Positions 1-52,862 of a stretch of DNA of 64,000 bases are shown piece after piece (position 1 is the first letter of the stretch; each line of letters opens with the position of its first letter). The notes below the pieces were generated by a model. The model was given only the letters and a program-made list of their open reading frames with translations. It searched no databases and was not told where the DNA came from. The stretch comes from a virus. The stretch spans positions 1 through 64,000 of IMG/VR virus record IMGVR_UViG_3300046001_005260. One strand, 5' to 3'. The translations under genes and the position numbers were made by a program.

Positions 1-1168
1 GAGATGTCCCTGAAATCGTGACTTCCTCGCCGCCGTATTGCTCCAATACCCAATCAGGAACATCGTCCGTCGTGACAACGTGACAAGCTGCAATCTCGGC
101 GGCGGTGTAAAACGTGCCGTCCTTGCGCTTGTAGTTGACGCCGGGGAAATACTCAACAACCGGGCTTTTCGGCCCGCTCGCCGTGCCTGTCCAGTAGTAA
201 ACAGCTGACCCGACACCAACCGGAATCGACCCGTAAAGCGAGACAAGCTGCGCAAGGTAGCTGTCACGATTGGCAACAAAGTTATCCGTTACGCTCGAAA
301 TCGTTTGGATGGTAACGGTGGCGAAGTCATCTTTCGGTAGAAAGTCCACAATCTCCGGCCCGCTGACCGTCACGATTTGCCGTTGTCCCGCTGCCGGTGT
401 TCCGACGCTCGCCGTCTGATTTGCCCACGCTGGCCTGCCAGTGGTTGCGCTGCGGGTAACGTAGTTCAAATCGACCAGCTTAACCTCCAAGTCAAGGCGC
501 GGCGTCAAGTCGCACAATTCGACCGCATCTGTTCCGATGGTGTAGGTCGTTTCCGTTGCGCCCGCGCGCCTGGTGACATTCAGCGCCGGAGTCGTGCCGG
601 AGTAATCAAACCATGCCACGGCGTCGGGACACCACCCGAGCAATGTCGAGATTGCCGACGCGCAAGACTGCTCTGAAAGCGTCATGTTTGGCACGTCGAA
701 CATCGTCGCAACGGTTCCAAGTGCAATTGGTGCGCCGTTGGTGATTGATCGGTTGATGATCGTTTCAAGATGGGTTTTGAGACTCCCAGTGGCAAGGACA
801 TAGGTTGCCCGCTCTGCACTTCCGCTGACCGCCCCGGCGTATGGCAATACGTCCGATGTCAGGTTGATTCGATCCAACCACCACCACGGACCCTCAACGG
901 TAATCGAAATGTTCCGCATTCCGACTTTCGGCGCGGTAACGTATCCTTTGAATTTTCGCGTCGAATCCCAGAAAAGCTCAACGATTTGCCCGATGTCAGG
1001 CACGATGGTTCCCACACCGGTCGCGTTTTCGGTTTCGGCGCTCCATGTCAGCGAATCCCCGGCAAGCGATTGGAAACGCAAGGTTGCGCTGGAAATGTTC
1101 AAGTCGGCAAAACTGCGCGGCGTTGCGTCGAGCGTCTTCCCGGTTTCTCCTTTGATGATCCAAGCCAT
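1..1168 (-). CDS. Tail hub/baseplate-like protein, unit A (3' end outside window)
   Basis: The frame is open from the ATG at 1168 to the window edge (389 codons), so the C-terminus is missing. It aligns without indels to the 567-residue protein at 39390-41093, so about 178 residues lie outside. The DNA is very similar to that copy, more so than most neighbouring genes. Its start overlaps the stop of the tape-measure gene as TAATG. Position directly after the tape measure suggests a distal tail or hub protein; no enzymatic motif was recognised. The role is inferred from gene order. Confidence 0.75.
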   Translation of the reverse strand, partial: MAWIIKGETGKTLDATPRSFADLNISSATLRFQSLAGDSLTWSAETENATGVGTIVPDIGQIVELFWDSTRKFKGYVTAPKVGMRNISITVEGPWWWLDRINLTSDVLPYAGAVSGSAERATYVLATGSLKTHLETIINRSITNGAPIALGTVATMFDVPNMTLSEQSCASAISTLLGWCPDAVAWFDYSGTTPALNVTRRAGATETTYTIGTDAVELCDLTPRLDLEVKLVDLNYVTRSATTGRPAWANQTASVGTPAAGQRQIVTVSGPEIVDFLPKDDFATVTIQTISSVTDNFVANRDSYLAQLVSLYGSIPVGVGSAVYYWTGTASGPKSPVVEYFPGVNYKRKDGTFYTAAEIAACHVVTTDDVPDWVLEQYGGEEVTISGTS

Positions 1169-2538
1169 TACCTAACCCTCCGGTTGAGTTCTGCCACCTG
1201 TTCAGAAATAGCTTTCTGCCGTTCGTTCATGGCGTTCATGGTTGCGATGAAGGCACGCATGTTCGCGTCGGTCGAATTGAGCAAAGTCACAATCTCCTTG
1301 TCCCGTCCCTCCTGCGAGCTTCTGATTCGCGTCATTGCCTCTTGCAGTTTCGCCATCTCGTTAGGGTCAATTACCCCGTTTTCGAGTAGCTTCGTGATCT
1401 GGTCAAGCCCGACCCGAGCGCCAGAGAACGCCGCCGGAGCCATCGCGGCAACCTCTTGCTGTATTTCTTGCGCCTGCTTTGTGATCTCAGCTTGAGTCTC
1501 GCTTGACAGGTTGCCAAGCGCTTCGCCGGTCGTTACCGCGATGCGTTGCTTTTCAATCTCGAATTTTTGCCGCTCTGTCGCCTGGTCGGCTTGCGCCTCG
1601 CCAAGTGCAATCTCTGCTTTGCGCAAGGTTTCATCCGCCGCCTTGTAAGCGTCCGAATAAATGTCGCCGATGTTGGCGAGTTTCATCTTGGCGGCAATAG
1701 CGTCATTTTCGGCAATCTCAACCCGCTGGTCAATCATGGCGAGCGCGTCAACCAGTGATTGCAGTTGATTGGAAGTTTCCACCCCGATTTGACCAAGCTG
1801 CGCGCCCGCTACGTCTCCGCCTGTCTGCCTCGCTGCAGTTACCGCCGCGCCTGCCGTTGCGCCTGCCAGCGCCCCTTCTGCGGCCCGAATTTCCGCCATC
1901 CGCTTCATGGCGTTCTCTTGCCGTTCCAAGTCGTCGGCTTGTTGGCGGTAAAGGCGAGCGATAGCTTCCTCGCGTTGCTGGTTCAGAACCCGCTGGCGAG
2001 CATCCGCTAACCCTTCCAGCGTCTTCTTGTTTGCCTCCGCTGACTTCTTTGCGGCGTCTTGCGCGGCGGTCATCTTTTGGTACTCCGCCGTCACCATCTG
2101 GATGCCAATGCCAGCCGCAACCGCGCCAAGTGAAATCGCTGTTCCAATTCCAACCGACATTGACAGAATGCCAGCGCCAAGCGTTTTCAGTTCAATTCCC
2201 GACGTTTGAACCGCGCCGATGAGTTGAGGGAACTGTTGAGAGAACGCAGTGATTGCCGACTGCCCGCCTTGAACCTGGACGGCAAAATCAGTGATTTGGA
2301 AACCCGCTTGCGTGGCAAGCCTACCCATTCCGGCGATGTCTTGACCGGCTGGTTTTGCTTTGGAGGAAACGCGCTTCAGCGCCTCTTCCGTGTCCGCCGC
2401 GCTCATTGTCGCAGTGGTGAAAACCTCGCTTACCTTTTTGGTTGGCGCGTGCAAATCATCCATTGCCCGCTGCGCTTGTTGCGCGCCGGAGGTATCCGCC
2501 GTGGTCTTGATCTCGATTCCTACGTTTTTATCGGCCAT
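1168..2538 (-). CDS. Tape-measure-like protein, unit A (456 aa)
   Basis: The protein is rich in Ala, Gln and charged residues, with long predicted coiled coil and a hydrophobic glycine-rich stretch around residues 117-150, as in tail tape-measure proteins. It is short for the family; at about 0.15 nm per residue it would span roughly 70 nm. The N-terminus, MADKNVGIEIKTTADTSGAQ, is nearly identical to the unit B copy at 41095-42603, while the rest has diverged. The start follows a CAACCACC leader. Function rests on position and composition. Confidence 0.7.
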   Translation of the reverse strand: MADKNVGIEIKTTADTSGAQQAQRAMDDLHAPTKKVSEVFTTATMSAADTEEALKRVSSKAKPAGQDIAGMGRLATQAGFQITDFAVQVQGGQSAITAFSQQFPQLIGAVQTSGIELKTLGAGILSMSVGIGTAISLGAVAAGIGIQMVTAEYQKMTAAQDAAKKSAEANKKTLEGLADARQRVLNQQREEAIARLYRQQADDLERQENAMKRMAEIRAAEGALAGATAGAAVTAARQTGGDVAGAQLGQIGVETSNQLQSLVDALAMIDQRVEIAENDAIAAKMKLANIGDIYSDAYKAADETLRKAEIALGEAQADQATERQKFEIEKQRIAVTTGEALGNLSSETQAEITKQAQEIQQEVAAMAPAAFSGARVGLDQITKLLENGVIDPNEMAKLQEAMTRIRSSQEGRDKEIVTLLNSTDANMRAFIATMNAMNERQKAISEQVAELNRRVR

Positions 2539-2550
2539 GGTGGTTGTTTT

Positions 2551-4212
2551 TTAGACCTTAAAAATTCCGGTTCTTCCGACCTTCAAAACGCCGTTTCCGT
2601 ATGCTCGCAAGTGACAGCGAAGATCATACGCGGCGTTGCTAGTTGGAGACCATTCCGGCGTGATTAACTGGATTGATCCAACCGGAAGGATTGAACCTGA
2701 AGCCGAAACCGACATTGCGCCATTGTGAGCAAGGTCAATACAGCGCGTGGCATCGGCATTTAAAGCAAGCTCGATATTGTAGAAGTCGCCCGAAACAATC
2801 TCAAGCTCGCAGAATGCTTGCAGCGTGTCAGCGGTCGTGAGCGCGGCATCGGCGGCGTCAACGTAAACTTGCGGAATTACAAGCGGTGCTGTCAGTAGCA
2901 GGTCAGTAACGGTTATTCCGCTGGTTGTAACCTCTAGCAAGTTTCCGTTGATTCCATCGGCTCGTGCGATGATATTTCTAACCATCGTTGATCCTGGAAC
3001 TGCCGCCTGGAATGCTGACACGTTGGCGACCCATCCAGTCGGCACGGCATTGCTCGCAATGGTCCCGTCAACGAACGGGTTGGGAGTAAGCCACGAAACG
3101 CTCCCGAAGTCAGGAATTGGATATTGAACCACGTTGTCAGTGTATGGCAATAGTTGCGCGGCCATGTATTCTCCGATGGTCGCTGCCCCGCAAATATTCG
3201 GGTGGATGTGATCCCCGGCAAACACTGAATCCATGTATCCGTCGCTGTTATCGTCAATCGAGGATTGATAGTCAAACCAAAGCATCCATCGGGAGTTTTT
3301 CGCCGCCGACAGAATGGCGTTAGTTGCAACCTGCGCGGCTTTCCATGCCGCTTCGTCGCCGCTTGGTCGGCTTGTCCGTGTTGGAGGAATCGCGACAGCA
3401 ATCAGCGTCTTTCCTGCTGCAATCACTTCGTCCCAAAGCGAAATGATATTTGCGGCAGCGGTAGAGTTGGCTGTCACGTTCATGTCGTTGGCCCCGACGC
3501 AAATCAAGATCGTATCAGCGTCGCTGTTGATCGCGTCAAGGAATGTTGTCCGGTATGTTCCGCCAACCATGAATCCTTCCGCCTTAATCCCTCCGATTCC
3601 ATGGTCGAATTTGCCGGTCAGTGAGTTTCTGGCAATCTCGATCTTGCGCTGGCAACGTGCTTTCATTTGCGCTGGCCATCCATTGCCAAGAAATTGAGTG
3701 ATGAAATACGGTGATCCAGGCGCATCCGATGTTGCGGCAATGATCGAATCTCCGACAACCGCAACCTTGGCAATCTTAATCCCTTTTGTCAGTCCTGTTG
3801 CGCTAAAATCGTATTGCGTGACGTTGGCAGGGGTGTCATAGCCAAGTAGGCGTTTCGGCTTGTGCGATTTGACCGTTGCGTTTGAGAATTGCCAATAGGC
3901 GTTAGAAACGCCAGAGACTTCGATTCGTAGCGGCTTCTTGGTTGCCAATTCCGCTGCGATCAGACCGTCAAGCATCGCGGCCCGCGCTGCCGAGTCTGTC
4001 GATTCTTCCGAAATCACTCGGAATGAAAACGAAGTAACCGCATTCTGTCCGATGCGCAAAAATGGCGCTGGCGAGTCAATCAAATCGACGGTTTCAACCT
4101 TCTTGTCCAACTGCGGTTCTAACTCGTCACTTTCCAGCATAGTGCCGAAATCGACAAGCACGGTGTTCGCGCCTGCCGGGTCGTATGTTAGTCGCCAATT
4201 GGATGATGTCAT
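2551..4212 (-). CDS. Tail protein with SGNH-type esterase domain, unit A (553 aa)
   Basis: An N-terminal structural part of about 150 residues is shared with the unit B copy at 42611-44500. It is followed by an SGNH/GDSL hydrolase domain: block I VAVVGDSI near residue 155, a GxND-like block CVGANDMN near residue 240 and the catalytic Asp/His block DHIHPN near residue 335. The C-terminal part looks like a carbohydrate-binding or fibre domain. SGNH hydrolases on virions usually deacetylate or de-esterify surface polysaccharide, so a role at the host surface is inferred. The two copies differ most in and after the hydrolase domain. Confidence 0.75.
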   Translation of the reverse strand: MTSSNWRLTYDPAGANTVLVDFGTMLESDELEPQLDKKVETVDLIDSPAPFLRIGQNAVTSFSFRVISEESTDSAARAAMLDGLIAAELATKKPLRIEVSGVSNAYWQFSNATVKSHKPKRLLGYDTPANVTQYDFSATGLTKGIKIAKVAVVGDSIIAATSDAPGSPYFITQFLGNGWPAQMKARCQRKIEIARNSLTGKFDHGIGGIKAEGFMVGGTYRTTFLDAINSDADTILICVGANDMNVTANSTAAANIISLWDEVIAAGKTLIAVAIPPTRTSRPSGDEAAWKAAQVATNAILSAAKNSRWMLWFDYQSSIDDNSDGYMDSVFAGDHIHPNICGAATIGEYMAAQLLPYTDNVVQYPIPDFGSVSWLTPNPFVDGTIASNAVPTGWVANVSAFQAAVPGSTMVRNIIARADGINGNLLEVTTSGITVTDLLLTAPLVIPQVYVDAADAALTTADTLQAFCELEIVSGDFYNIELALNADATRCIDLAHNGAMSVSASGSILPVGSIQLITPEWSPTSNAAYDLRCHLRAYGNGVLKVGRTGIFKV

Positions 4213-4225
4213 TCGGTCGATTTGG

Positions 4226-4729
4226 TTATACGCTCAAAGATGCGGCTTGCTCAAACATATCGTTCACTTGCTCTTCCGACAGGCTCAGCGCAACGGCCAA
4301 GCTCAGGATCGTCGGCGATTGGCGCGGAAAATCCGCGTTGTTGTCCCACGCGCTTTTGATGATTGTTCGCTGCGGTTCGTCCAGCGATTCAATCGCCGTT
4401 TCAGCGGCGGTCAGCAATCCCATGAGCGAAAGCACGGCCTTTGCCTGCCATGCCTTGATTGAGTCGGTTGGAGCTGGTTCCGTCGCGGAGGATTGCAACG
4501 CGGCAATCTCCGCCTCAAGCTCAGCAATGCGAGCGAGCGCAGCGGCGTTTACCGATCCAAGGATCGACGCCGATAGCTCGGTCGGGATTGGCCGTGCCTG
4601 CCCCGGCTTTTCGGTTATCACTTCGCCGCTATCGTCAATGTAGCGAGTCAATTCGACGTAATGAGCGCCAGCCAATTTGCCATCTTTGAAGCGCAAAAGG
4701 ATTTCATCAGGTAGGTTTTGAGTGGTCAT
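4226..4729 (-). CDS. Tail-region protein of unknown function, unit A (167 aa)
   Basis: Residues 85-167 form an all-alpha domain with a DEPQRTIIKSAWDNNADF motif, a type I recall near phage tail fibre genes. A short coiled coil (ARIAELEAEIAALQ) precedes it. The gene sits between the fibre gene and the SGNH gene, where unit B instead has a lectin-like gene (44960-45601) and an unrelated 150-aa gene, so this is a variable slot. The biochemical function is unknown. Confidence 0.6.
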   Translation of the reverse strand: MTTQNLPDEILLRFKDGKLAGAHYVELTRYIDDSGEVITEKPGQARPIPTELSASILGSVNAAALARIAELEAEIAALQSSATEPAPTDSIKAWQAKAVLSLMGLLTAAETAIESLDEPQRTIIKSAWDNNADFPRQSPTILSLAVALSLSEEQVNDMFEQAASLSV

Positions 4730-4732
4730 AAG

Positions 4733-5719
4733 TTATGAAATTATTGCTCGGTCAGTTACTCTCCGCCAGTTGGTTCCGTCTGAAAAACATAGTACGGCTC
4801 CGCCAGATTCGTTGGATACATAGATGGTTGACCCGGAGGAGATAGATGCAGATGGTACGGTGGCGACGGTGAACGATTTCAGTTGCACCGTGTTGTCGCA
4901 AATCAGGTTTGCTAGCTTTAACGAACCTGCGAAACTACCGTTAGCTCCAGTTCCTATTCCAAGGAGGCCAGCAGACAAACGGCTTAAACTTGTGTCTTTT
5001 GTAGATGTTGGAGTGCTAGAACTCCACGTTAAATAAAATGTATTTGCCAACAATAACACCCCGCCGGATGTTGTCACGAATCTTGCGTCGGCCCCATAAA
5101 ACCCAGTCGATGCGTTGACTATTGTCAACGTCGGACTATCGCCAGTCCCCAACCCCGCCGCGTTTCGCAGATTCGCCTTTGTCGTCGCGTCGGTGGTTAG
5201 CGTACCAGCTGTTAGCGTGCCGCTGATTGTACCGTTGGTTAGTGCGGCAGTGGCGGCGGCAGTGGCGGCGGTGTCCGCGTGGGACACGTTGGCTGTTAGG
5301 AGATCATCCGGCTGCACGGCGCTGTCGGCTTTAGCGCCTTGGGCGGCAGTGGCCGCTCCGATGTCGCCCGGGGCCGTGATCTTGCCTTGGAAGATCGTTG
5401 AAAAGTAGGTTCCAAGCGTGCTCTTGATCGCGGCCCAGGTGAACTTTTTCCAGCCGAAACTGGCGGCGCTGTCTGCCAGGCCGATCTCATCCGCGTCCAC
5501 GGGCGCGCCCTTCGCATCCGCAGCATGGACGATTGCTGCGATGGCCGCAGCATCTACGGTGCCATTCCCGCCACCGGCAGCCCATTCCGCCTCTGTCATC
5601 GGCGGGTCATCGGTGGTGGTGGCGAGGTAGGATTGATAGGCAGACTTCCCGACCGGGCCAATTTCCCGCGACACGGCCGTTGTCACTTCTACCGTTCTAA
5701 CGACAACCCTATCACTCAT
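4733..5719 (-). CDS. Tail fibre-like protein, unit A (328 aa)
   Basis: The protein is low in charge, rich in Thr, Ser, Gly and Ala, with a collagen-like/fibre shaft composition. The N-terminal 120 residues (MSDRVVVRTVEVT; VDADEIGLADSAAS.GWKKFTWAAIKSTL) match the unit B fibre at 45601-46518, while the C-terminal half is unrelated. A conserved N-terminus that anchors to the virion and a variable distal half are typical of receptor-binding fibres. Its start overlaps the end of the 113-aa gene upstream. Confidence 0.65.
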   Translation of the reverse strand: MSDRVVVRTVEVTTAVSREIGPVGKSAYQSYLATTTDDPPMTEAEWAAGGGNGTVDAAAIAAIVHAADAKGAPVDADEIGLADSAASFGWKKFTWAAIKSTLGTYFSTIFQGKITAPGDIGAATAAQGAKADSAVQPDDLLTANVSHADTAATAAATAALTNGTISGTLTAGTLTTDATTKANLRNAAGLGTGDSPTLTIVNASTGFYGADARFVTTSGGVLLLANTFYLTWSSSTPTSTKDTSLSRLSAGLLGIGTGANGSFAGSLKLANLICDNTVQLKSFTVATVPSASISSGSTIYVSNESGGAVLCFSDGTNWRRVTDRAIIS

Positions 5720-6057
5720 GCTTCCTCCGGTCTAGTTGATGGCGTGGTGATCTTGATTTGCTCGGTCGGGATTAGGAACGTGCGAACGCCGTCGATTTCA
5801 ACAAGCAAATCCCAGATATAACAGCCTTCTGGCAACGACCATGTGTCTGTCGTGTCTAGCTCGAAATCCACGATATTCTCCTCACCAGTCCGCAGCGTGA
5901 AAGCGGTTGAAATGTCGGCAATAACCGCGCCTGTCCTGTCCCGAATCTCCGCTAGAAATGTCCCGCCGGTTAGGTCATCCGCAACACCGGCAGGCGTGGT
6001 GACGGTAATTCCCTCGGTGTAGGTCAAACCGCGCGTGATAGTTGTTGGCGTTGCCAT
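5716..6057 (-). CDS. Small beta-rich tail protein, unit A (113 aa)
   Basis: A compact protein with the pattern TRGLTYTEGITVTTPAGVADDLTGG and a C-terminal WDLLVEIDGVRTFLIPTE segment; it closely matches unit B 46515-46847. This beta-sandwich pattern resembles N-terminal domains of baseplate upper proteins that hold fibres. The gene directly precedes the fibre gene with a 4-bp overlap, so an adaptor role is inferred. No catalytic residues are evident. Confidence 0.6.
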   Translation of the reverse strand: MATPTTITRGLTYTEGITVTTPAGVADDLTGGTFLAEIRDRTGAVIADISTAFTLRTGEENIVDFELDTTDTWSLPEGCYIWDLLVEIDGVRTFLIPTEQIKITTPSTRPEEA

Positions 6058-10479: not shown

Positions 10480-10522
10480 GCCGTCATAAAACCCCGGCGG
10501 ATAGGCTTTGACAACCGGGACG

Positions 10523-10535
10523 AATGGCCCCCGGT
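10523..10535 (-). promoter_or_regulatory. Late-promoter-like element before the protease, unit A
   Basis: Minus-strand sequence ACCGGGGGCCATT, with its 3' end 44 bp from the GTG start of the protease gene. It matches the elements at 15550 and 17551 in unit A. It lies in the 63-bp gap between the gpG and protease genes; gaps of this size are rare in this module. Confidence 0.55.
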
Positions 10536-10542
10536 TTTGCGA

Positions 10543-12509: not shown

Positions 12510-14145
12510 TGGTCGGTTCTTTCGCCCCGCTAACCCATGCCGCTCCAAGGAGCGCCGCCAATGAGTCTTCGTCGATTAGCTTGCCCTCTTTCACGGCTTT
12601 CTCAAGGTCTTTCATCCGCTCGCTTAGTGAGTCAAGCGCGGCAGCATCGGCGGCTTTGACGGGCTTCTTGCGCGCTCGCTTTGCCTTGACTGGCTTTGCG
12701 GGTGGTTCCGGTTCTTCGTCATCTCCCGGTTCGGTTTCAAGTTCTGGTTCCGTGCCGGTTTGCGGCGTGGCGATTTCATCCTGTTCTTCAGACTCCTCCA
12801 CAAGCAATTCATCCCCTGCCGCCGGTTGCGGTATCCCGTGCCGCTCGTAAAACCAAGCGGACGCGACAGGCACGACGCCGGAGGTGATGCCAAGCGCAAC
12901 ATCGCGCTCAGCCATCGCTTTCTCATCCTTCGATTCTTCCGACCTTGCCCACATCTCAGGCAGGTCTGACCGCTCGCCGTAGTTGACCGCCACGATGGCT
13001 GGAATGAGTTGATGCGTGAGAATCCCACCAACGAAGTCAGCGACGCCGGAAACGACCGCGTTAAGCGTGTTTTCGTGAACCTCGCCAAGCGCGCGGCTGC
13101 CGGTGCCATCGGTTCCACTGGTCAGCGTTTGGCCTAAAATGAATTGCTCGCATTGACGGTCGGCCAGGTCTAGCAAAGCGGCTTGCGGGATAGCGTCGCC
13201 GCCTTTTGCCGCGTCCATGACGTTGACCTTGGTTCCGGAGTTGGTAATGACGTATCCCGCTGATCCGATGTCTGCCATCGCAGCCTGAACGGCGGAAACG
13301 TCGGAAGCGTCGGCAACCTCAACGTGGCGCCATGGCACGCCGTAAAGCTGAGTAAACGACATGAACCATTTCAGCCCATAGACCGCCGCCAACCAATACC
13401 CTACCAGCGCACGCAACGGTGCGGCAACGGATGGATGCCCGTCATGGCCCGAATGAACGCCAATCAGGAAACGATTCGGTGCAAAGTCTTCATAAACCCG
13501 CGCTCCCATTGCACCGCTAGGATCAAACATGAGGCGGTCTTCTGCGTCATCTTTCGGGTCGTAATACGGGTAGCCATAATACCGCGCCGGAACCGCCTTG
13601 GTGCATCGTGGTTTCCATGTCCCGTCTGCGGATTTATCCCATCGGATTTCTGCGACCCGATGCCCGTAGTAATACCCGCGCACTAGCCCGGAAATGGTAG
13701 ATTCTAGACCATCCTCCATGCGTTCGGGGCGTGGTTTCATCCCCCAAACGATTGCTTCAATCTCCCGCGCCATGCGCTCCGCTGACTTCTTCGGCTTGTC
13801 GCCGCGTGGTGCGTATGGAATGACTTTCCACGGCGCTGTCACTACCATCCGCGAAACCTCGTCAATCGACTTTTGCAGCTTCGGCCAGGTGTCAATCATG
13901 GCCGTGAAAAGGAGGCTTTGCTGGTGCAAGTCGCCATTAAGCGCAGCTGCGAGCGTCGCCTTTACGTCTGTTGGCTTTTGCTCCCGCTCGAAAATATCCC
14001 ACATGCGATCCCGCGCCGCTGGCACGTTGATGGAATTGGCCCAATCGTTGCGCTGCCTGCGGTTTTCAGCGGACGCGGCAGCGACAATGTCACGGCGTGG
14101 CGGCAAAGCAGCGCCAACGGGTCGGAATTGTGGGGAAATGTTCAT
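12499..14145 (-). CDS. Portal protein, Mu gp29/DUF935-like, unit A (548 aa)
   Basis: DUF935-type features include LFTAMIDTWPKLQKSIDEV near residue 80, APWKVIPYAP, RGYYYGHRVAEI and EQFILGQTLTSGTDGTGSRALGEVH near residue 345. The C-terminus carries an acidic then basic extension (EPELETEPGDDEEPEPP, then Lys/Arg-rich) that is shorter and Ala-rich in unit B. The portal forms the dodecameric vertex channel for DNA packaging. Only 9 bp separate it from the upstream membrane-protein gene, whereas unit B has a promoter-like element there. Confidence 0.85.
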   Translation of the reverse strand: MNISPQFRPVGAALPPRRDIVAAASAENRRQRNDWANSINVPAARDRMWDIFEREQKPTDVKATLAAALNGDLHQQSLLFTAMIDTWPKLQKSIDEVSRMVVTAPWKVIPYAPRGDKPKKSAERMAREIEAIVWGMKPRPERMEDGLESTISGLVRGYYYGHRVAEIRWDKSADGTWKPRCTKAVPARYYGYPYYDPKDDAEDRLMFDPSGAMGARVYEDFAPNRFLIGVHSGHDGHPSVAAPLRALVGYWLAAVYGLKWFMSFTQLYGVPWRHVEVADASDVSAVQAAMADIGSAGYVITNSGTKVNVMDAAKGGDAIPQAALLDLADRQCEQFILGQTLTSGTDGTGSRALGEVHENTLNAVVSGVADFVGGILTHQLIPAIVAVNYGERSDLPEMWARSEESKDEKAMAERDVALGITSGVVPVASAWFYERHGIPQPAAGDELLVEESEEQDEIATPQTGTEPELETEPGDDEEPEPPAKPVKAKRARKKPVKAADAAALDSLSERMKDLEKAVKEGKLIDEDSLAALLGAAWVSGAKEPTNDK

Positions 14146-21167: not shown

Positions 21168-23888
21168 TTATTGTTGGCCCATTGGTTTTGCGCTCATAGA
21201 CTCAAGCTCCGCCAAGTCGAACAGGCTCGGCATAGTTATCTCCGCTTCCGCCGCTTGGCAGTATGAGCAAGCGTCGAGGTAATAAGCGTGATTGAGTTCA
21301 AAGCCAATTCCTTTTCTGCCTTTCAGAATTGCACGGTAAGGCACGGTGCCGATCCCGGCGAACGGGTCAAACACAGTCTCACCCGGCATGGTGAATTGCT
21401 CAATGCATCGGTCAGCGATGTCGAATTGCATAGGGCAAAGGTGCATTTCCTTGCCATGACTCCACTGCGAGGCATTTAGCGTCATCATGCGAGTGATGTC
21501 TGTCCACACGTCATCGGACCAGCTTTGCGGCTGCAAAAGCATGAACGTCACCGGCAGCATTCCAAGCGCGTCAATCGCTTCGCCGAATTTGACGTGATTC
21601 TCAAACGAATAAACAGTGTCCAAGCTGTGCGCTTTGAAAAGCTGGAATATATCAGCGTGGGTTAGTCCTTTCAGGTCGTCACATGTAAGCGGACGGTCGC
21701 CACTGCTGCGGGTGAATCCATGTGCGTCAGTCTGCCAACGTGAGCGGCTATAAACCCGACTCTTGGTTTTCTTGTGGAATTTCACCGGAACAATGTCTCC
21801 GCCGCACTCGCACGTTTCCGATGTGAGTTTTGCCATGTCTTTCTGAGTATATACCCGCCCGCATTCGTCGCAGATATGTTCACGGCCCGTGTATTTCACG
21901 ACAGGCTCATCCGCGTAACTATCGCTCGTTTCAGTTGGTGGTTTCCGGAACATGAGCAGATACTCCGGCATTCCTACTCCCATCTTTGAGCCGTCCTTGC
22001 ATTGCTCTGTCCAACCAAGGCGATAGGTTTGATTATTCTCCCTCACCACGTCTGTTACAATGGTTTTCATGCCCATGTATGCAAAGCCATGCTTCACGAA
22101 ATGGCGCGTGGTTTCCATGTGGAACGGATAGACGGTTTGAAAACCTAGCCCGGTCATGCCACCCGGCACGATGCGGTCCTTGACATGGATGATTGCCAAG
22201 CGACCAGGCTTCAATGCGCGAAGCAATGAAGGCGTCAAGTAATCCATTTGCCCGAAAAACTCTTCGTTTCCTTCGCTGTGTCCGAAGTCAGCGTAGTTCG
22301 GTGAGTATTCGTATTGAGTTGAGAACGGGATGGATGTCAGAATCATGTCGAGACTATTCTCGGCAAGCTCAGCCGTGCCTTTCACTGTATCCTCATTGGT
22401 TAGAGCAAACCGCTCGCCTTTGCAGACAATGGCGCTATCAATGCCCATGCCTCTTGTCAGGTGTTGAGCCATTGCTGCCTGTGACAGCCCGAATTTTTGA
22501 ATAATCTCAGTCATGTTCTTAACCATAATAATGTGTTGTTGCCATTTTCTTTCGAGTGTCTTTTTAACGGCATACTCGGCTTCCGTATAGATGATGTCTA
22601 TTCTTACTTTCTTTGTTTGCAGGAATCGGTAAGTCCGGTGGATTGCTTGAATGAAATCCGCGAACTTGAACCCTATCCCCACAAAAATTTCCCATGCGCA
22701 AAACCTTTGGAAATTGCACCCACTCCCGGCGATAACCGGCTTAGTTGATAGAGTTGCAAAGTCGCCGTTAGAGAATCCAATGATCCGACGCTCACGCTCG
22801 TCCATATCTTGGCACCCCCAGACAGCCAGAGAGTCCGGCAACGCATCTTGAATTGCTCGGCGCTCATCTTCCAAGTCATGCCATACCAAACAATGATCAA
22901 GCGGGTTAGATTTGCGAAGCTCTACCATCTTTTCAATCCTCTTCGCCATGCTCGCCCGTTTTTCCGCGCTTGCATCTTGCACTCCAATAGCTGCGTCCCT
23001 CATGAGCTTGCCTTGCCCCATTTTGTCGAATCCAAGGTTAGAATAATCACTTTCCACGCAATGCCAATGAACATCCATCTCTGGCAATGAATAACCTTCA
23101 TCCGTGAATCCAAGGTCGGAAGGCTTTTGCACGAATAGCGCCCAGCTTGCTACCCATAGCCAGAACTCCTCCTCCTTATGAGCGTGCAACGTGAGCTTGT
23201 CGGCTTTAGTTGAGTCTCGTTTGAAGAATCTGGTCTTGGCTTGGCTAACGTCCATAATGCCCAAGAAATCAGCGTAGCAAAGAAGCTCGATGTATTCGTT
23301 AGGCGATGGCGTGGCAGTTGCGACAAACCGATATTTCACGGTCTTCTTGTCTCCGCGTGATCGTCCGGTTGGCCCGCCGTCTCCGGTGCATAGCAGCATG
23401 AACTCCCGAAAGGTCTTGCTGCCACCGAACCCGCGCAAGATTGCGGCCTCGTCAAGTGATACAACCAAGAACTCAGCGGGGTCCAGCTTGCCATCCCTAA
23501 CGGTCTCATAGTTGGTTAGGTAGATTCCGGTTGGACCGGCTTCTTCAATCCTGCGAATGAATTTAGGCGGTGTTTCCCATCCAAGAATCTCTGTCGCATC
23601 GCGGGCAAACTCTTGCCGCACTCCGAGCGGGCAGACGATCAATCCGCGCCCTCCTTCGTTTTCCGTGATGATCCTGGTTGTTTCTAATTGCACCACGCTC
23701 TTTCCAAGCCCGAATGATGCAAAGCAAGCTCGCCGCCCGCCTTTTACCATCCATTCAACCATTGCTCGCTGGTGCGGCTTTAGGGCGTGATTGATTCCTG
23801 TCGCGTCGATTGTTACTCCGTCATCGCAAGCCATGCGGACTTTGCTTTTCAGGAATTGATCGTAGTCTGTGTTTTGTTTCGTTGTCAT
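21168..23888 (-). CDS. SNF2-like helicase fused to beta-class DNA amino-methyltransferase, unit A (906 aa)
   Basis: Residues 1-470 are a superfamily II helicase: FGLGKS Walker A near 59 and SLDEAAIL near 143. Residues 480-906 are a DNA N4-C/N6-A methylase with motif IV TSIPF near 540, a four-Cys zinc ribbon (CDECG then CECGG) near 690, and motif I FDPFAGIGTVPY near 858. The order IV then I marks the beta class. TSIPF departs from the usual (S/D)PP(Y/F/W), so activity is uncertain. The single frame shows no stop or shift. It may methylate and remodel replicating phage DNA to evade restriction. Confidence 0.75.
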   Translation of the reverse strand: MTTKQNTDYDQFLKSKVRMACDDGVTIDATGINHALKPHQRAMVEWMVKGGRRACFASFGLGKSVVQLETTRIITENEGGRGLIVCPLGVRQEFARDATEILGWETPPKFIRRIEEAGPTGIYLTNYETVRDGKLDPAEFLVVSLDEAAILRGFGGSKTFREFMLLCTGDGGPTGRSRGDKKTVKYRFVATATPSPNEYIELLCYADFLGIMDVSQAKTRFFKRDSTKADKLTLHAHKEEEFWLWVASWALFVQKPSDLGFTDEGYSLPEMDVHWHCVESDYSNLGFDKMGQGKLMRDAAIGVQDASAEKRASMAKRIEKMVELRKSNPLDHCLVWHDLEDERRAIQDALPDSLAVWGCQDMDERERRIIGFSNGDFATLSTKPVIAGSGCNFQRFCAWEIFVGIGFKFADFIQAIHRTYRFLQTKKVRIDIIYTEAEYAVKKTLERKWQQHIIMVKNMTEIIQKFGLSQAAMAQHLTRGMGIDSAIVCKGERFALTNEDTVKGTAELAENSLDMILTSIPFSTQYEYSPNYADFGHSEGNEEFFGQMDYLTPSLLRALKPGRLAIIHVKDRIVPGGMTGLGFQTVYPFHMETTRHFVKHGFAYMGMKTIVTDVVRENNQTYRLGWTEQCKDGSKMGVGMPEYLLMFRKPPTETSDSYADEPVVKYTGREHICDECGRVYTQKDMAKLTSETCECGGDIVPVKFHKKTKSRVYSRSRWQTDAHGFTRSSGDRPLTCDDLKGLTHADIFQLFKAHSLDTVYSFENHVKFGEAIDALGMLPVTFMLLQPQSWSDDVWTDITRMMTLNASQWSHGKEMHLCPMQFDIADRCIEQFTMPGETVFDPFAGIGTVPYRAILKGRKGIGFELNHAYYLDACSYCQAAEAEITMPSLFDLAELESMSAKPMGQQ

Positions 23889-28243: not shown

Positions 28244-28287
28244 GGTTGGGGTGATTTGCCGGGGATTGAACCCGGCTGGCTTATTGG

Positions 28288-28657: not shown

Positions 28658-29629
28658 TCAGCGTAATGCGGAATCGGTTATCGCTGCTTGGATGAATTGC
28701 GCGGCGACTTGCGGCACGATTGCATTGCCGTAGCCCCGCAAGAGTCCCACGCGACCGGGAAACCCATCAGCCAGCGGGAATGTCCCGCTCTCAACACGCC
28801 TCGCTTTTCCGTCTGTGCATAGGAGGATGTCGAAGGAATCCCAAGCGTTGCCTCGCAGTTCAACGGTAGCGAGTTCCTGTGGAATTGTGACGGGCCCGCA
28901 TTGTTCGCCGAGTCCTGCACCGTTGGTGTTGCCCACCCCACAAGGTCCGGCACATTCTGCGGCGTCATGCGTGGTCGGGCCCCTCCGTGATCTTTCCCGC
29001 GATTGGTCGAGTTGTTGGGCCCCTCGCTCGCCTGCGGCGTCGGCCACCCCGCTAGCTGTGCTGCTGTTTGCAGCGAGTCGCCGCCCTGTCTCGTTTCCGT
29101 CCAGCTTGCACCAGTCCCCTCGCTCGCCTGCGGCGTCGGCCACCCAGTAGAGTCTTTGGCGGATGTGGGGCGCGCCGACGCCCGCAGCGCACAGATCGGC
29201 ACCCGCCGCGGCATATCCCATTGTTTCCAAGTTAGCGAATACTCCAGCGAGCCATTTACGTCCACCAGCGCTCGCAACCTGCTCTCCAAAGACGACTGAA
29301 GGGCTGCACCGATTGATGAGGCGACGGAACGCTGGCCATAGATGACGCGGATCATTTCGGCCCAACTGCTTCCCGGCGTGGCTGAATGGTTGGCACGGGC
29401 AGGAGCCTGTCCAAACGGGACGATCTTCGGGCCATCCCGCCAGTTGAAGAGCGAGAGGCCATCCGCCGATCCCGGCGAAGAAGTGGCATTGAGTGTATTC
29501 GGTGAGTTCATTAGGTTCAATTTGTGTGATGGATCGTTCATCGACCACGCCGGGAGGAATCAGGCCGGCGGCGATTAGTTCGCGCAGCCATGCTGCGGCT
29601 TTCGGGTCAAATTCGTTGTAAAAGTTCAT
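28658..29629 (-). CDS. C5-cytosine DNA methyltransferase, unit A (323 aa)
   Basis: Motif I FFAGIGGWPLAL near residue 51, motif IV GSCPCQPFS near residue 75 (catalytic Cys), motif VI-like VVFGEQV near residue 111 (GEQ instead of ENV), motif VIII RQRLYWVADA near residue 155, and motif IX/X GLLRGYGNAIVPQVAAQF near residue 300. The target-recognition region holds a repeated VADAAGERG block encoded by a 30-bp direct repeat. It probably protects phage DNA from restriction. No cognate restriction enzyme is adjacent. Confidence 0.85.
   Translation of the reverse strand: MNFYNEFDPKAAAWLRELIAAGLIPPGVVDERSITQIEPNELTEYTQCHFFAGIGGWPLALQLAGWPEDRPVWTGSCPCQPFSHAGKQLGRNDPRHLWPAFRRLINRCSPSVVFGEQVASAGGRKWLAGVFANLETMGYAAAGADLCAAGVGAPHIRQRLYWVADAAGERGDWCKLDGNETGRRLAANSSTASGVADAAGERGAQQLDQSRERSRRGPTTHDAAECAGPCGVGNTNGAGLGEQCGPVTIPQELATVELRGNAWDSFDILLCTDGKARRVESGTFPLADGFPGRVGLLRGYGNAIVPQVAAQFIQAAITDSALR
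28678..29541 (-). CDS. Large overlapping frame inside the methyltransferase gene (287 aa)
   Basis: A 287-codon frame lies within the methyltransferase gene in another minus-strand register. It begins MNDPSHKLNLMNSPN and contains SLTWKQWDMP, two GWPTPQASEG blocks and WLMGFPVAWDSCGA. I recall very similar proteins (GWPTP repeats, WLMGFP ending) from other phages, always with C5-methyltransferases. It may be a second product or a by-product of a conserved methyltransferase sequence. Expression is unproven. Confidence 0.35.
   Translation of the reverse strand: MNDPSHKLNLMNSPNTLNATSSPGSADGLSLFNWRDGPKIVPFGQAPARANHSATPGSSWAEMIRVIYGQRSVASSIGAALQSSLESRLRALVDVNGSLEYSLTWKQWDMPRRVPICALRASARPTSAKDSTGWPTPQASEGTGASWTETRQGGDSLQTAAQLAGWPTPQASEGPNNSTNRGKDHGGARPRMTPQNVPDLVGWATPTVQDSANNAGPSQFHRNSLPLNCEATLGIPSTSSYAQTEKRGVLRAGHSRWLMGFPVAWDSCGATAMQSCRKSPRNSSKQR
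29020..29145. repeat. 30-bp direct repeat in the methyltransferase target-recognition region
   Basis: Identical 30-bp copies occupy 29020-29049 and 29116-29145. They are 96 bp apart, a multiple of three, so both reading frames keep their register. Recombination between them would delete 32 codons cleanly. Confidence 0.8.
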
Positions 29630-33318: not shown

Positions 33319-33364
33319 TGGTTGGTGGTGGTTGAGGTTGCCGGGGTCGAACCGGCGGGATTGG

Positions 33365-50297: not shown

Positions 50298-51266
50298 TTA
50301 GGCTTTTTCTTCGGCGGCGATTGCGGCTTCGACCTTTTCGCGTGGGCTGAGTTCCTTTTCGGTGGCGTCGGCGGCTTTGACCGGCGCAATCGGCTGATCC
50401 AGCTTGTCAAACTTGGCAGGCAGCGCAGCGATGAACTGAGCGCCGAGCGCTTCGTTGGCTTCAAGGAAAGAAAGCACTTGACCCTTGGTCGCTTCGTCTT
50501 TTGGGGCGATCTTGCCAGCGGCAACCGCAGCTTCTACGATGGCGCCCAGGCGAGCCTTGTTAGCTTCTGCCAGTTTGGCTTCTGCCATGTCATTTGATTT
50601 CTTCAGTTCCGCCAACTCTGCTTCAAGTTCAGCGATGCGCTTTGCTTTGTCGGTCATCTCGCCGTCCATGGCGGCAACCTTGGCGAGCGCGGATTGTTCG
50701 GCGGATTCATGGGCGGGGTCAATCCCGAGTTTGGCGAGCAATAGTTTCATTGTGCGGGGCGGTATAGGTGAGGATTCTGCCGCGTCACTTGCGGCGATGC
50801 GTGGAATTTCACGGAAAGCAGGCTCGTTCACAAGCGCTCCGAGTGGTCCCCGGTCTGGAAGCCCGGCGGGCGTGCCGTTTTCGTCCATCAGGAAGGTGGG
50901 CGAGAAGTAGGAAAAATCTTTGCCTTCGATGGCTGCGCGGCCCGCTCCGGTCCATTCCAGCGAGCACATGACACCCTTGCCGGGTTCGTAGCGGAATGAC
51001 TGAGGAAGCGCGCTTGATTTGCCGCCTTTGTGTTCAAAGTCAAACCACGGGCGGACGTTTCCCGCCTGTCGCTTCATGAGGTCAGCTTGCAGGCTGGCGG
51101 CGATTTCCTCGCCACGTTCGGCAGGAATGCGAACGGTGATTTGCTTTGCCTTGCCGTTGACGAACGGGGTGATTGTATGCTCGCCCTCTGGCAAATACAC
51201 GATTTCGCCAGTAGCCCCGCCATCAGGTAGGAGGCTAGCAAATGCGGTTACAAGGAGCGGCTTCAC
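50298..51266 (-). CDS. Mu gpI-like prohead protease with C-terminal scaffold, unit B (322 aa)
   Basis: Protease part VTAFASLLPDGGATGEIVYLP, FDFEHKGGKSSALPQSF and FSYFSPTFLMDENG; scaffold part from the internal ATG at 50750. The GTG at 51266 was chosen by alignment with unit A, since the longer frame to 51413 enters the promoter region of the plus-strand cassette. The late element is 44 bp upstream. Scaffold start and its upstream element copy (50842-50854) match unit A in spacing. Confidence 0.8.
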   Translation of the reverse strand: MKPLLVTAFASLLPDGGATGEIVYLPEGEHTITPFVNGKAKQITVRIPAERGEEIAASLQADLMKRQAGNVRPWFDFEHKGGKSSALPQSFRYEPGKGVMCSLEWTGAGRAAIEGKDFSYFSPTFLMDENGTPAGLPDRGPLGALVNEPAFREIPRIAASDAAESSPIPPRTMKLLLAKLGIDPAHESAEQSALAKVAAMDGEMTDKAKRIAELEAELAELKKSNDMAEAKLAEANKARLGAIVEAAVAAGKIAPKDEATKGQVLSFLEANEALGAQFIAALPAKFDKLDQPIAPVKAADATEKELSPREKVEAAIAAEEKA

Positions 51267-51322: not shown

Positions 51323-51363
51323 TAGGCGATTTCAGGCAAAGTGAAAATAGTTTGAAAAACTTG

Positions 51364-51392
51364 TTGACGAAATCAGCGGATTGCAGTAATTT
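51364..51392 (+). promoter_or_regulatory. Sigma70-like promoter of the plus-strand cassette, unit B
   Basis: TTGACG, 17 bp, TAATTT, 27 bp upstream of the first plus-strand ATG at 51420. This is the clearest sigma70-type promoter in the window and points against the late operon. Confidence 0.65.
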
Positions 51393-51419
51393 TCTCCCGG
51401 CAGCAAGCCACACCGCAAA

Positions 51420-51740
51420 ATGACAACTTCATTCAGCAAATTCCAAACCGCAACGCTTCCAGAAACCACTGCCGATGCAATCGGATTCTTTGAAGCCATC
51501 GCGCTTGCCGGACTTGAAAAACAATTCGTCAGAATCCCGGTCGCAACCCAACGCCGCCACTTCGGAAGCGCCCCATTCGGAAAGCTCGCCGTGAAAGTCG
51601 AAAACTCAACCTGCCGCACAATCAAGGCAATGGACTTTGGTCGCGACTTTGACACCCAAGAGGCATCATGGAGCATGGCAGACAGGGCGTGGCGGTCAGC
51701 AGATGGCGAGAGAATCCTTGAGTCATTCCCGAAAGCATAA
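51420..51740 (+). CDS. First plus-strand cassette gene, unit B (106 aa)
   Basis: MTTSFSKFQTATLPETTADA... with SAPFGKLAVKVENSTCRTIKAMDFGRDFDTQEASW. Not recognised. It is on the opposite strand to all flanking late genes and has no counterpart at the same locus in unit A (10480-10542). Probably a moron gene expressed from its own promoter. Confidence 0.6.
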   Translation: MTTSFSKFQTATLPETTADAIGFFEAIALAGLEKQFVRIPVATQRRHFGSAPFGKLAVKVENSTCRTIKAMDFGRDFDTQEASWSMADRAWRSADGERILESFPKA

Positions 51741-51776
51741 CCAAAACGCGGGGTTCAATCCCCCGATATTAATCAA

Positions 51777-52037
51777 ATGAGAAACTTCAAAGAAGTCAGT
51801 CAATCGGACATTCAAGACGGACAATCGTATTTTTTGGCCCGCAAAATCAAAACTTCAATCTGGTTTTGGTCGCAGCCCAAAAACGGTCCAGAAAAATGGA
51901 CATCAAAACCGGGGATTGCGGTTCATTTTGTTGGAGGGGATGATCTTCGGAAAGTCTTTGATAAAAACCGACAGGTTGAAATGGTTGCAATCGAAGTGCC
52001 CAGCGATCACGCAAAAAGATGGAGGGCGAGGAAATAG
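51777..52037 (+). CDS. Second plus-strand cassette gene, unit B (86 aa)
   Basis: MRNFKEVSQSDIQDGQSYFLARKIKTSIWFWSQPKNGPEKWTSK... is a basic, Trp-containing alpha/beta protein of unknown family. It follows the first gene by 36 bp, and its stop lies 2 bp before the third gene's ATG. Function unknown; superinfection or host modulation is possible. Confidence 0.55.
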   Translation: MRNFKEVSQSDIQDGQSYFLARKIKTSIWFWSQPKNGPEKWTSKPGIAVHFVGGDDLRKVFDKNRQVEMVAIEVPSDHAKRWRARK

Positions 52038-52039
52038 CC

Positions 52040-52228
52040 ATGACCCCAAAACCAACCAAAGGCGGAAAACGCCCCGGCTCAGGCCGTAAGCCAAAACCAG
52101 ACAAGCGGGTTACGCGGTCAATCAGCCTTCCGCCCGAGTCATGGGCCAAGCTGGACGATCTGGCGGCAAAGCGTGGCGCTTCCCGGTCGGAAGCGGTAAA
52201 CGGGCTAATCACTCGAAAGAGTCGATAA
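52040..52228 (+). CDS. Ribbon-helix-helix protein, third plus-strand cassette gene, unit B (62 aa)
   Basis: A basic N-terminus (GGKRPGSGRKPKPDKR) precedes a ribbon-helix-helix domain VTRSISLPPESWAKLDDLAAKRGASRSEAV. The ATG at 52040 with a GAGGAA SD sequence is preferred over 52019. RHH proteins are small DNA-binding regulators or antitoxins. Its 3' end overlaps the gpG-like gene tail to tail by 20 bp. Confidence 0.65.
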   Translation: MTPKPTKGGKRPGSGRKPKPDKRVTRSISLPPESWAKLDDLAAKRGASRSEAVNGLITRKSR

Positions 52229-52862
52229 AATCCTCAATCGCTTGCGCTGCCGCCGTGGTGATGGCTGCGACCGGTGGCAAAATCCCGCTGTCGCCACGAT
52301 GCCGCGTGATCGTGCGCAGCGTGTAGAGCAATTTGCCGCCAACCTTCGGCAGCGTGATCTTTTTGCCCTTGTTTGGGCCATGTTTTGCGACAATTTCCAC
52401 GCCTTCGACGAGGTATCCGACAGTCTCGCGCCCCCGTGCCGCGTGAATGAACGCTAGGATGCCGGATTGCGAGGGTTGAACGCGTCGCCCGTCCTTCACC
52501 ATCACGGCCTTTGAAGGGATGGCAAGCGCCCGCGTGGGGCGTCCGGTGTAGGAACTGATTGACTTGCCCGGCGTGACTTCGCCGCCGTAGTAGCGCAAGG
52601 CAATGAACGATTCGCGCAGCGTGACGGTTGCGCGCTCGTTGTCGTGGTTTGCCTCTGCTGATTTCCAAACGTCACGCCAAAATGCCAACCCGTCCTTGTC
52701 GCGTGGAAAATACTTCGTTTCAAGATGATCTCTGACAAGTTCCCGCGCAGCCGTGGCAATGACATCGTGCATTCCAACCCGGTCTTGCGTCGCCCGCGTA
52801 ATCGCCCGCAAGCTAGCGTTGGCGGCTGCTGAATCAATCGAAACCGTAATGGACAGACTCAT
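52209..52862 (-). CDS. Mu gpG-like virion morphogenesis protein, unit B (217 aa)
   Basis: The start at 52862 overlaps the F-like stop (ATGA) and gives MSLSITVSIDSAAANASLRAIT as in unit A; a longer frame to 53090 is not credible. Collinear with unit A throughout. Confidence 0.75.
   Translation of the reverse strand: MSLSITVSIDSAAANASLRAITRATQDRVGMHDVIATAARELVRDHLETKYFPRDKDGLAFWRDVWKSAEANHDNERATVTLRESFIALRYYGGEVTPGKSISSYTGRPTRALAIPSKAVMVKDGRRVQPSQSGILAFIHAARGRETVGYLVEGVEIVAKHGPNKGKKITLPKVGGKLLYTLRTITRHRGDSGILPPVAAITTAAAQAIEDFIDSFE

Follow-up and report, generated by a model that had tools for sequence, protein, structure and literature searches.

How does a block of three plus-strand genes come to lie within a phage head operon that is read from the minus strand, and what could it do there? 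The locus belongs to the IMG/VR record IMGVR_UViG_3300046001_005260, of which 64,000 of 68,035 bases were analyzed (hereafter, the window). The window holds two related sets of head genes, both on the minus strand; we keep for them the names units A and B, which, like the expression "late genes," are the wording of an earlier note on this DNA. That note had placed a plus-strand block of three ORFs between gpG and the protease in the head operon of unit B, and this description stood: the ORFs, their strand, and their coordinates were as reported, and the portal, protease, and capsid genes of unit B matched the Pfam models Portal_Mu, Mu-like_Pro, and GP7. The features of the locus, with the corresponding site of unit A, are as follows.

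50298–51266, minus strand: Mu I-like head protease, one flank of the insert (GTG start; Pfam PF10123, E 6.4e-17; 65% identical to unit A)
51331–52204, plus strand: insert of about 0.87 kb (the cassette), absent from unit A, delimited by alignment of the A and B flanks
51364–51392, plus strand: candidate promoter TTGACG-17-TAATTT
51420–51740, plus strand: ORF1, 106 aa, member of an uncharacterised phage and plasmid family (tblastn, profile, and codon score)
51749–51765, plus strand: tRNA-T-arm-like hairpin in the gap between ORF1 and ORF2, preceded by TAACCAA at the ORF1 stop
51777–52037, plus strand: ORF2, 86 aa, a basic orphan protein (pI 10.1; codon score)
52040–52228, plus strand: ORF3, 62 aa, ribbon-helix-helix (RHH) protein (pI 11.6; Pfam RHH_1, PHROG transcriptional repressors)
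52209–52862, minus strand: gpG-like protein, the other flank (68% identical to unit A)
10480–10542: empty site of unit A, 63 bp between protease and gpG

The unit B terminase was nearest to those of Akkermansia phages (43% identical to that of Chambord), and therefore the host of this tailed phage is probably a verrucomicrobium. The non-structural genes of the window also include, at 21168–23888 and 28658–29629, those for a large N6/N4 DNA methylase-domain protein and for a C5 cytosine methylase; the non-structural region of unit B (contig L036, 4650–6866) encodes a comparable-looking protein of 738 aa. These proteins possibly serve as self-protection against restriction.

The comparison of the two units located the ends of the added DNA. 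The sequence shared by A and B stops at GCGA near 51330 and restarts at ATCACTC near 52204, and the approximately 0.87 kb in between is filled by the three-ORF cassette; unit A has only 63 bp at this position, as had been claimed. The G+C content of the insert was 0.507, against 0.58 in gpG and the protease, a value as low being found in 38 of 1263 windows. Two marks of a moron are thus present: DNA added where a relative has the two genes side by side, and a deviating composition. The marks of an IS-like mobile element were instead missing from the insert, which has neither terminal inverted repeats (its end-to-end inverted match scored 12, against a shuffled mean of 13) nor an ORF of transposase size.

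Then, we considered the locus in other genomes. More distant relatives have the gene order G-MuF-protease. Their MuF-protease gap measures about 55 bp in L007, L008, and L010; that of L006 is longer, about 210 bp, and contains a same-strand frame of 50 aa. None of these four carries a reversed-strand cassette. This favours gain by B over loss by A, cautiously, since these relatives have a different upstream gene. No relative with the whole cassette was found, and scans of the genome collection with gpG and with the ORF1 family returned none. An IMG/VR record of sample 3300046003 (L004, positions 1–5905, equal to window positions 51344–45440) is 100% identical to unit B and stops at 51344, some 14 bp into the cassette; this end could mark where variants that have the cassette diverge from those that lack it, or could be chance. 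In contig L009 (4903–7815), gpG is truncated and MuF has no match; immediately upstream of its protease, the contig carries several additional, unrelated ORFs, and one of these reads as if it were a C-terminal piece of a polymorphic toxin. The plus-strand gene annotated at the same locus in Akkermansia phage Chantilly (ON453895.1, 12541–13512) was discarded as a parallel cassette: its coding score was 0.118, against 0.457 for an overlapping minus-strand frame of 200 aa, and the minus strand holds better-scoring frames at 12583–13185 and 13192–13392. This gene is probably a mis-annotation.

The coding status of the three ORFs was assessed with a codon model trained on 42 genes of the window, using 156 spurious overlapping ORFs as the null. 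ORF1 scored 0.407, at or above 41 of the 42 training genes and above all the spurious ORFs; ORF2 (0.213) and ORF3 (0.146) were reached by two and four of the 156, respectively, and the minus-strand frames competing with the cassette scored 0.05 and 0.00. Fourteen plus-strand ORFs of at least 40 aa scored above 0.15 in the window, and four of these were free of substantial overlap by a better minus-strand ORF, namely the three cassette ORFs and a low-scoring one with a TTG start at 864–1175. ORF1 and ORF2 lack a Shine-Dalgarno sequence, as do 37 of the 42 window genes by the same test, and this lack is normal for these genes. The cassette is almost certainly a real set of genes.

How the cassette might be expressed is suggested by its leader and by a small RNA element. 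The proposed sigma70-like promoter is weak when judged by consensus: it matches 8 of 12 positions and was not listed by the promoter scan. When the 90 bp upstream were shuffled, 83 of 2000 shuffles gave a site as good, and the window has 72 such sites. What remains of the claim draws its support from leader similarity. Indeed, the 120 bp before ORF1 resemble the leader of a unit A operon at 33.6 kb with a score of 41, reached by none of 500 shuffles and by 2 of 1000 random windows. The likeness to a second unit A leader, at 28.5 kb, was weak (score 30, reached by 11 of 500 shuffles and 29 of 1000 random windows); the 33.6-kb and 28.5-kb leaders, which both belong to the non-structural region of unit A, align with each other at a score of 51 (0 of 500 shuffles). 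The arrangement around the hairpin of the cassette recurs in two non-structural operons of unit A:

28259–28275, minus strand: same hairpin arrangement, unit A non-structural operon
33340–33356, minus strand: same hairpin arrangement, another unit A non-structural operon

In all three operons, gene 1 ends with TAACCAA, a 17-nt hairpin follows, and the ATG of gene 2 comes 11–21 bases further on. The hairpin has five pairs and a TTCRANY loop, and we take it to resemble a tRNA T-arm. Such hairpins numbered three in the window, against a mean of 0.18 and a maximum of two in 60 shuffles, and all three are preceded by TAACCAA, a combination seen in none of the 60. Three of the five pairs change on both sides, a count that derives from three sequences only and was matched by 20 of 500 shuffles. 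Among the 14 records searched, the TAACCAA-hairpin element was restricted to this record and the separate contig of unit A. A tRNA gene or an attachment site as the identity of the hairpin was ruled out, since ARAGORN and Rfam found no tRNA gene in the window; near-threshold Rfam matches were chance, and the T-arm matches in contigs L045 and L046 were part of true tRNA-Met genes. A tRNA-Met gene, absent from the window, occurs in the related contigs L006 (1902–1975) and L008 (2072–2149). We found no report of a T-arm-like hairpin in phage mRNA in the literature searched. On the plus strand, a weak terminator-like site lies inside gpG (52333–52352), one of 10 such sites in a 3-kb stretch where 4.4 are expected.

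We infer from the leader and hairpin likenesses, which are to non-structural operons rather than to a lysogen-specific promoter, that the cassette shares the expression layout of these operons. This likeness, with the recurring TAACCAA-hairpin, suggests expression like that of a non-structural, probably early, module. Early-type expression of a cassette inserted backwards in a late operon is therefore the probable case, the earliness of the non-structural operons being assumed. Together, the common leader and the T-arm-like hairpin point to a signature by which expression modules might be recognised in these little-studied phages.

The earlier note had left the first two proteins unrecognised, which stands for ORF2 and no longer for ORF1. 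A tblastn search with ORF1 retrieved distant homologues in six phage and seven plasmid records (E from 6e-5 to 6e-3), the phage records being those of HRDY3, Lu11 (twice), R4_1, and phiEap-3 (twice). The same 13 records were obtained starting from the Burkholderia vietnamiensis member, with E values down to 1e-34 among non-identical sequences. One further homologue is encoded on an IMG/VR phage contig. The named members are HRDY3 XDJ15317, Lu11_0011, R41_25, phiEap-3 gp098, pYKBR041 BCU00785, B. vietnamiensis WP_052691518, and EbN1 WP_011254759. A profile built from nine other members matched the window ORF1 with an E value of 2.4e-15 among 7379 frames and matched no non-member, and ORF1 keeps the conserved residues of the family pattern, FFE...QR...FGK/R...FGxD. 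It is nevertheless divergent, with 23–30% identity to the other members. The family is rare: a search with a central member gave 7 matches among 72,556 plasmids and 6 among 50,697 phages. A viral scan with the R4_1 member returned no relative even though IMG/VR holds members of the family, and such scans therefore miss distant relatives.

None of the nine family members matched Pfam, NCBIfam, or PHROGs at E values up to 0.01, and six member accessions had no mention in the literature searched. ORF1 itself matched no described anti-defence family above cut-off in PADLOC, NCBIfam, PHROGs, or Pfam. Weak matches of the Pfam search, to DUF7241 and MIR, fell below the cut-off and were set aside. Structure models were poor (pLDDT 57 and 52), and the structure search with ORF1 (best PDB match, E 0.58) was dropped because the model was too poor. 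The family occurs in unrelated phages, namely jumbo phages and T4-like Slopekvirus phages, and in broad-host-range plasmids, and has no Pfam, NCBIfam, or PHROGs model; it offers a concrete candidate for a function in counter-defence or host takeover that these elements would share.

The genes surrounding the homologues were then compared. On pYKBR041 and pYKCG107, named IncP-1 iota plasmids in PMC9499019, the homologue is the middle one of three genes that form a block directly preceding klcA (L018, 2568–3399; L021, 2572–3403, between trfA and klcA). The klcA product of pYKBR041 matched Pfam Antirestrict (E 4.7e-36), and the gene downstream of the block is annotated as antirestriction in pYKCG107. 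The block and klcA may be separate operons, because a gap of about 0.13 kb divides them. On the B. vietnamiensis plasmid, the homologue precedes a PAPS-reductase-domain gene and two DNA methyltransferase genes. It lies upstream of the recombination genes ERF and YqaJ on the IMG/VR phage contig, among small genes after DNA ligase in R4_1 and phiEap-3, and among mostly hypothetical genes in HRDY3, Lu11, and EbN1. A recognised antirestriction or methyltransferase gene was thus present in three of nine neighbourhoods, with none in those of EbN1, HRDY3, Lu11, R4_1, and phiEap-3. None of 22 neighbouring sequences convincingly matched ORF2 or ORF3 (two of those from L016 were mis-framed or partial); the best match was R41_24 to ORF3 (E 0.03 in a set of 24 sequences).

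For ORF2, no homologue was found in phages, plasmids, or IMG/VR; the apparent relatives in L002 and L003 are antisense inside a major capsid gene and were discarded as chance. ORF3 had been described as an RHH protein, and its Pfam RHH_1 match (E 8.9e-6; 25.9 bits against a cut-off of 20.5) agrees. It has a basic N-terminal tail, with the RHH at the C-terminal end (Pfam residues 27–53 of 62), and its last 20 bp overlap the end of the convergent gpG. Distant relatives occur at 13 IMG/VR loci, most matching the tail only. On account of its fold class, we lean slightly towards ORF3 being an autoregulator of the cassette.

Several other explanations were weighed. A toxin-antitoxin system, with ORF2 as the toxin, ORF3 as the RHH antitoxin, and ORF1 as a passenger, would fit a small basic protein adjoining an RHH protein, and certain type II systems, BrnTA among them, have the toxin-then-antitoxin order. 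However, ORF2 matched no toxin family, the C-terminal position of the RHH leaves ORF3 no toxin-binding tail, and the NCBIfam RelB-like antitoxin model scored 14.7 against a cut-off of 50. Neither a toxin nor an antitoxin with a toxin-binding region is thus recognisable, and we consider this system improbable. The position of the gap, downstream of MuF, and the extra ORFs of L009 could suggest an immunity gene for a polymorphic MuF toxin. This idea is hardly credible here and was rejected: the MuF proteins of A and B share 69% identity through to their ends and show no exchange of the C-terminal domain, even though the cassette is confined to B, and its orientation is opposite. That the cassette is a neutral or decaying hitchhiker, recently inserted and not selected for, agrees with its single instance, its absence from unit A, and the orphan status of ORF2, but the three frames are intact and coding-like, both flanking genes were left intact by the insertion, and the leader and hairpin elements are retained, so that we judge it quite unlikely.

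The earlier note had pointed to defence, exclusion, or lysogenic conversion. A moron of the last two kinds, with ORF1 or ORF2 expressed from the prophage and blocking other phages, would suit the position and the antisense orientation, as in classical morons. Against it, no tyrosine integrase or resolvase was found across the 68-kb record, itself possibly incomplete; a PADLOC search of the cassette gave no match at E values up to 10; no membrane or lipoprotein gene was recognised on reading the sequences; and relatives of ORF1 reside on conjugative plasmids and in phages that are presumably virulent. The Akkermansia phages nearest by terminase include Chambord and Chantilly, listed as induced prophages in PMC10197239, and Pseudomonas aeruginosa phage Fc02 is a known case of small exclusion genes that the lysogen transcribes (PMC9936078). 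On balance, conversion or exclusion is unlikely, and none of the three functions received specific support.

The anatomy named in the earlier note is well founded instead: the block is compact, about as large as a transcription unit, has its own leader, is absent from the sister unit, is low in G+C, and runs opposite to the operon. It is very probably a moron-type cassette. The distribution of the ORF1 relatives and their adjacency to klcA seem to point more to counter-defence or another interaction with the host than to conversion. Anti-defence genes cluster in the leading regions of plasmids, and just under one in ten of the leading-region families analyzed carried phage-associated annotations (PMC11541004). 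Because of this clustering and the homologue neighbourhoods, a counter-defence role is our leading guess for ORF1, a tentative one. The whole reading, a moron in which ORF1 would serve host interaction or counter-defence, ORF3 would be a repressor, and expression would be of early type, has in our estimate a probability of about 0.5. The leader of the cassette would drive its transcription as in the small non-structural operons, hence early and independently of late activation. Once in a new cell, ORF1 would act on a host target, most probably to weaken a defence, for example restriction, with ORF2 as an accessory partner, and ORF3 would repress the cassette. More speculatively, and with considerable doubt, ORF1 could represent a new counter-defence family of Verrucomicrobial, T4-like, and jumbo phages and IncP-1 plasmids, carried in these phages in plug-in early modules that are marked by a T-arm-mimicking RNA hairpin between genes 1 and 2 and are able to jump reversed even into a late operon.

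Like phage morons, of which HK97 gp15 is an example, the cassette is a compact unit that has putative expression signals of its own, sits between conserved structural genes, is missing in a close relative, and deviates in G+C; unlike typical morons, it has three genes, including one for an RHH protein, and is antisense to the late operon. Within its family, the window ORF1 is a member, but a divergent one with different neighbours. Plasmids with ORF1 homologues, like the leading-region anti-defence islands described in PMC11541004, carry small genes near klcA-type antirestriction or methyltransferase genes, whereas none of the three genes of the phage cassette is a known anti-defence gene. In the IncP-1 klc region of the two plasmids examined, klcA is immediately preceded by the block that holds the homologue; klcA is conserved in IncP-1 plasmids according to the available part of PMC9499019, in which we found nothing on the genes upstream of it. 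Compared with these systems, the cassette is ordinary in kind, and its new parts are an unstudied protein family and a shared RNA element.
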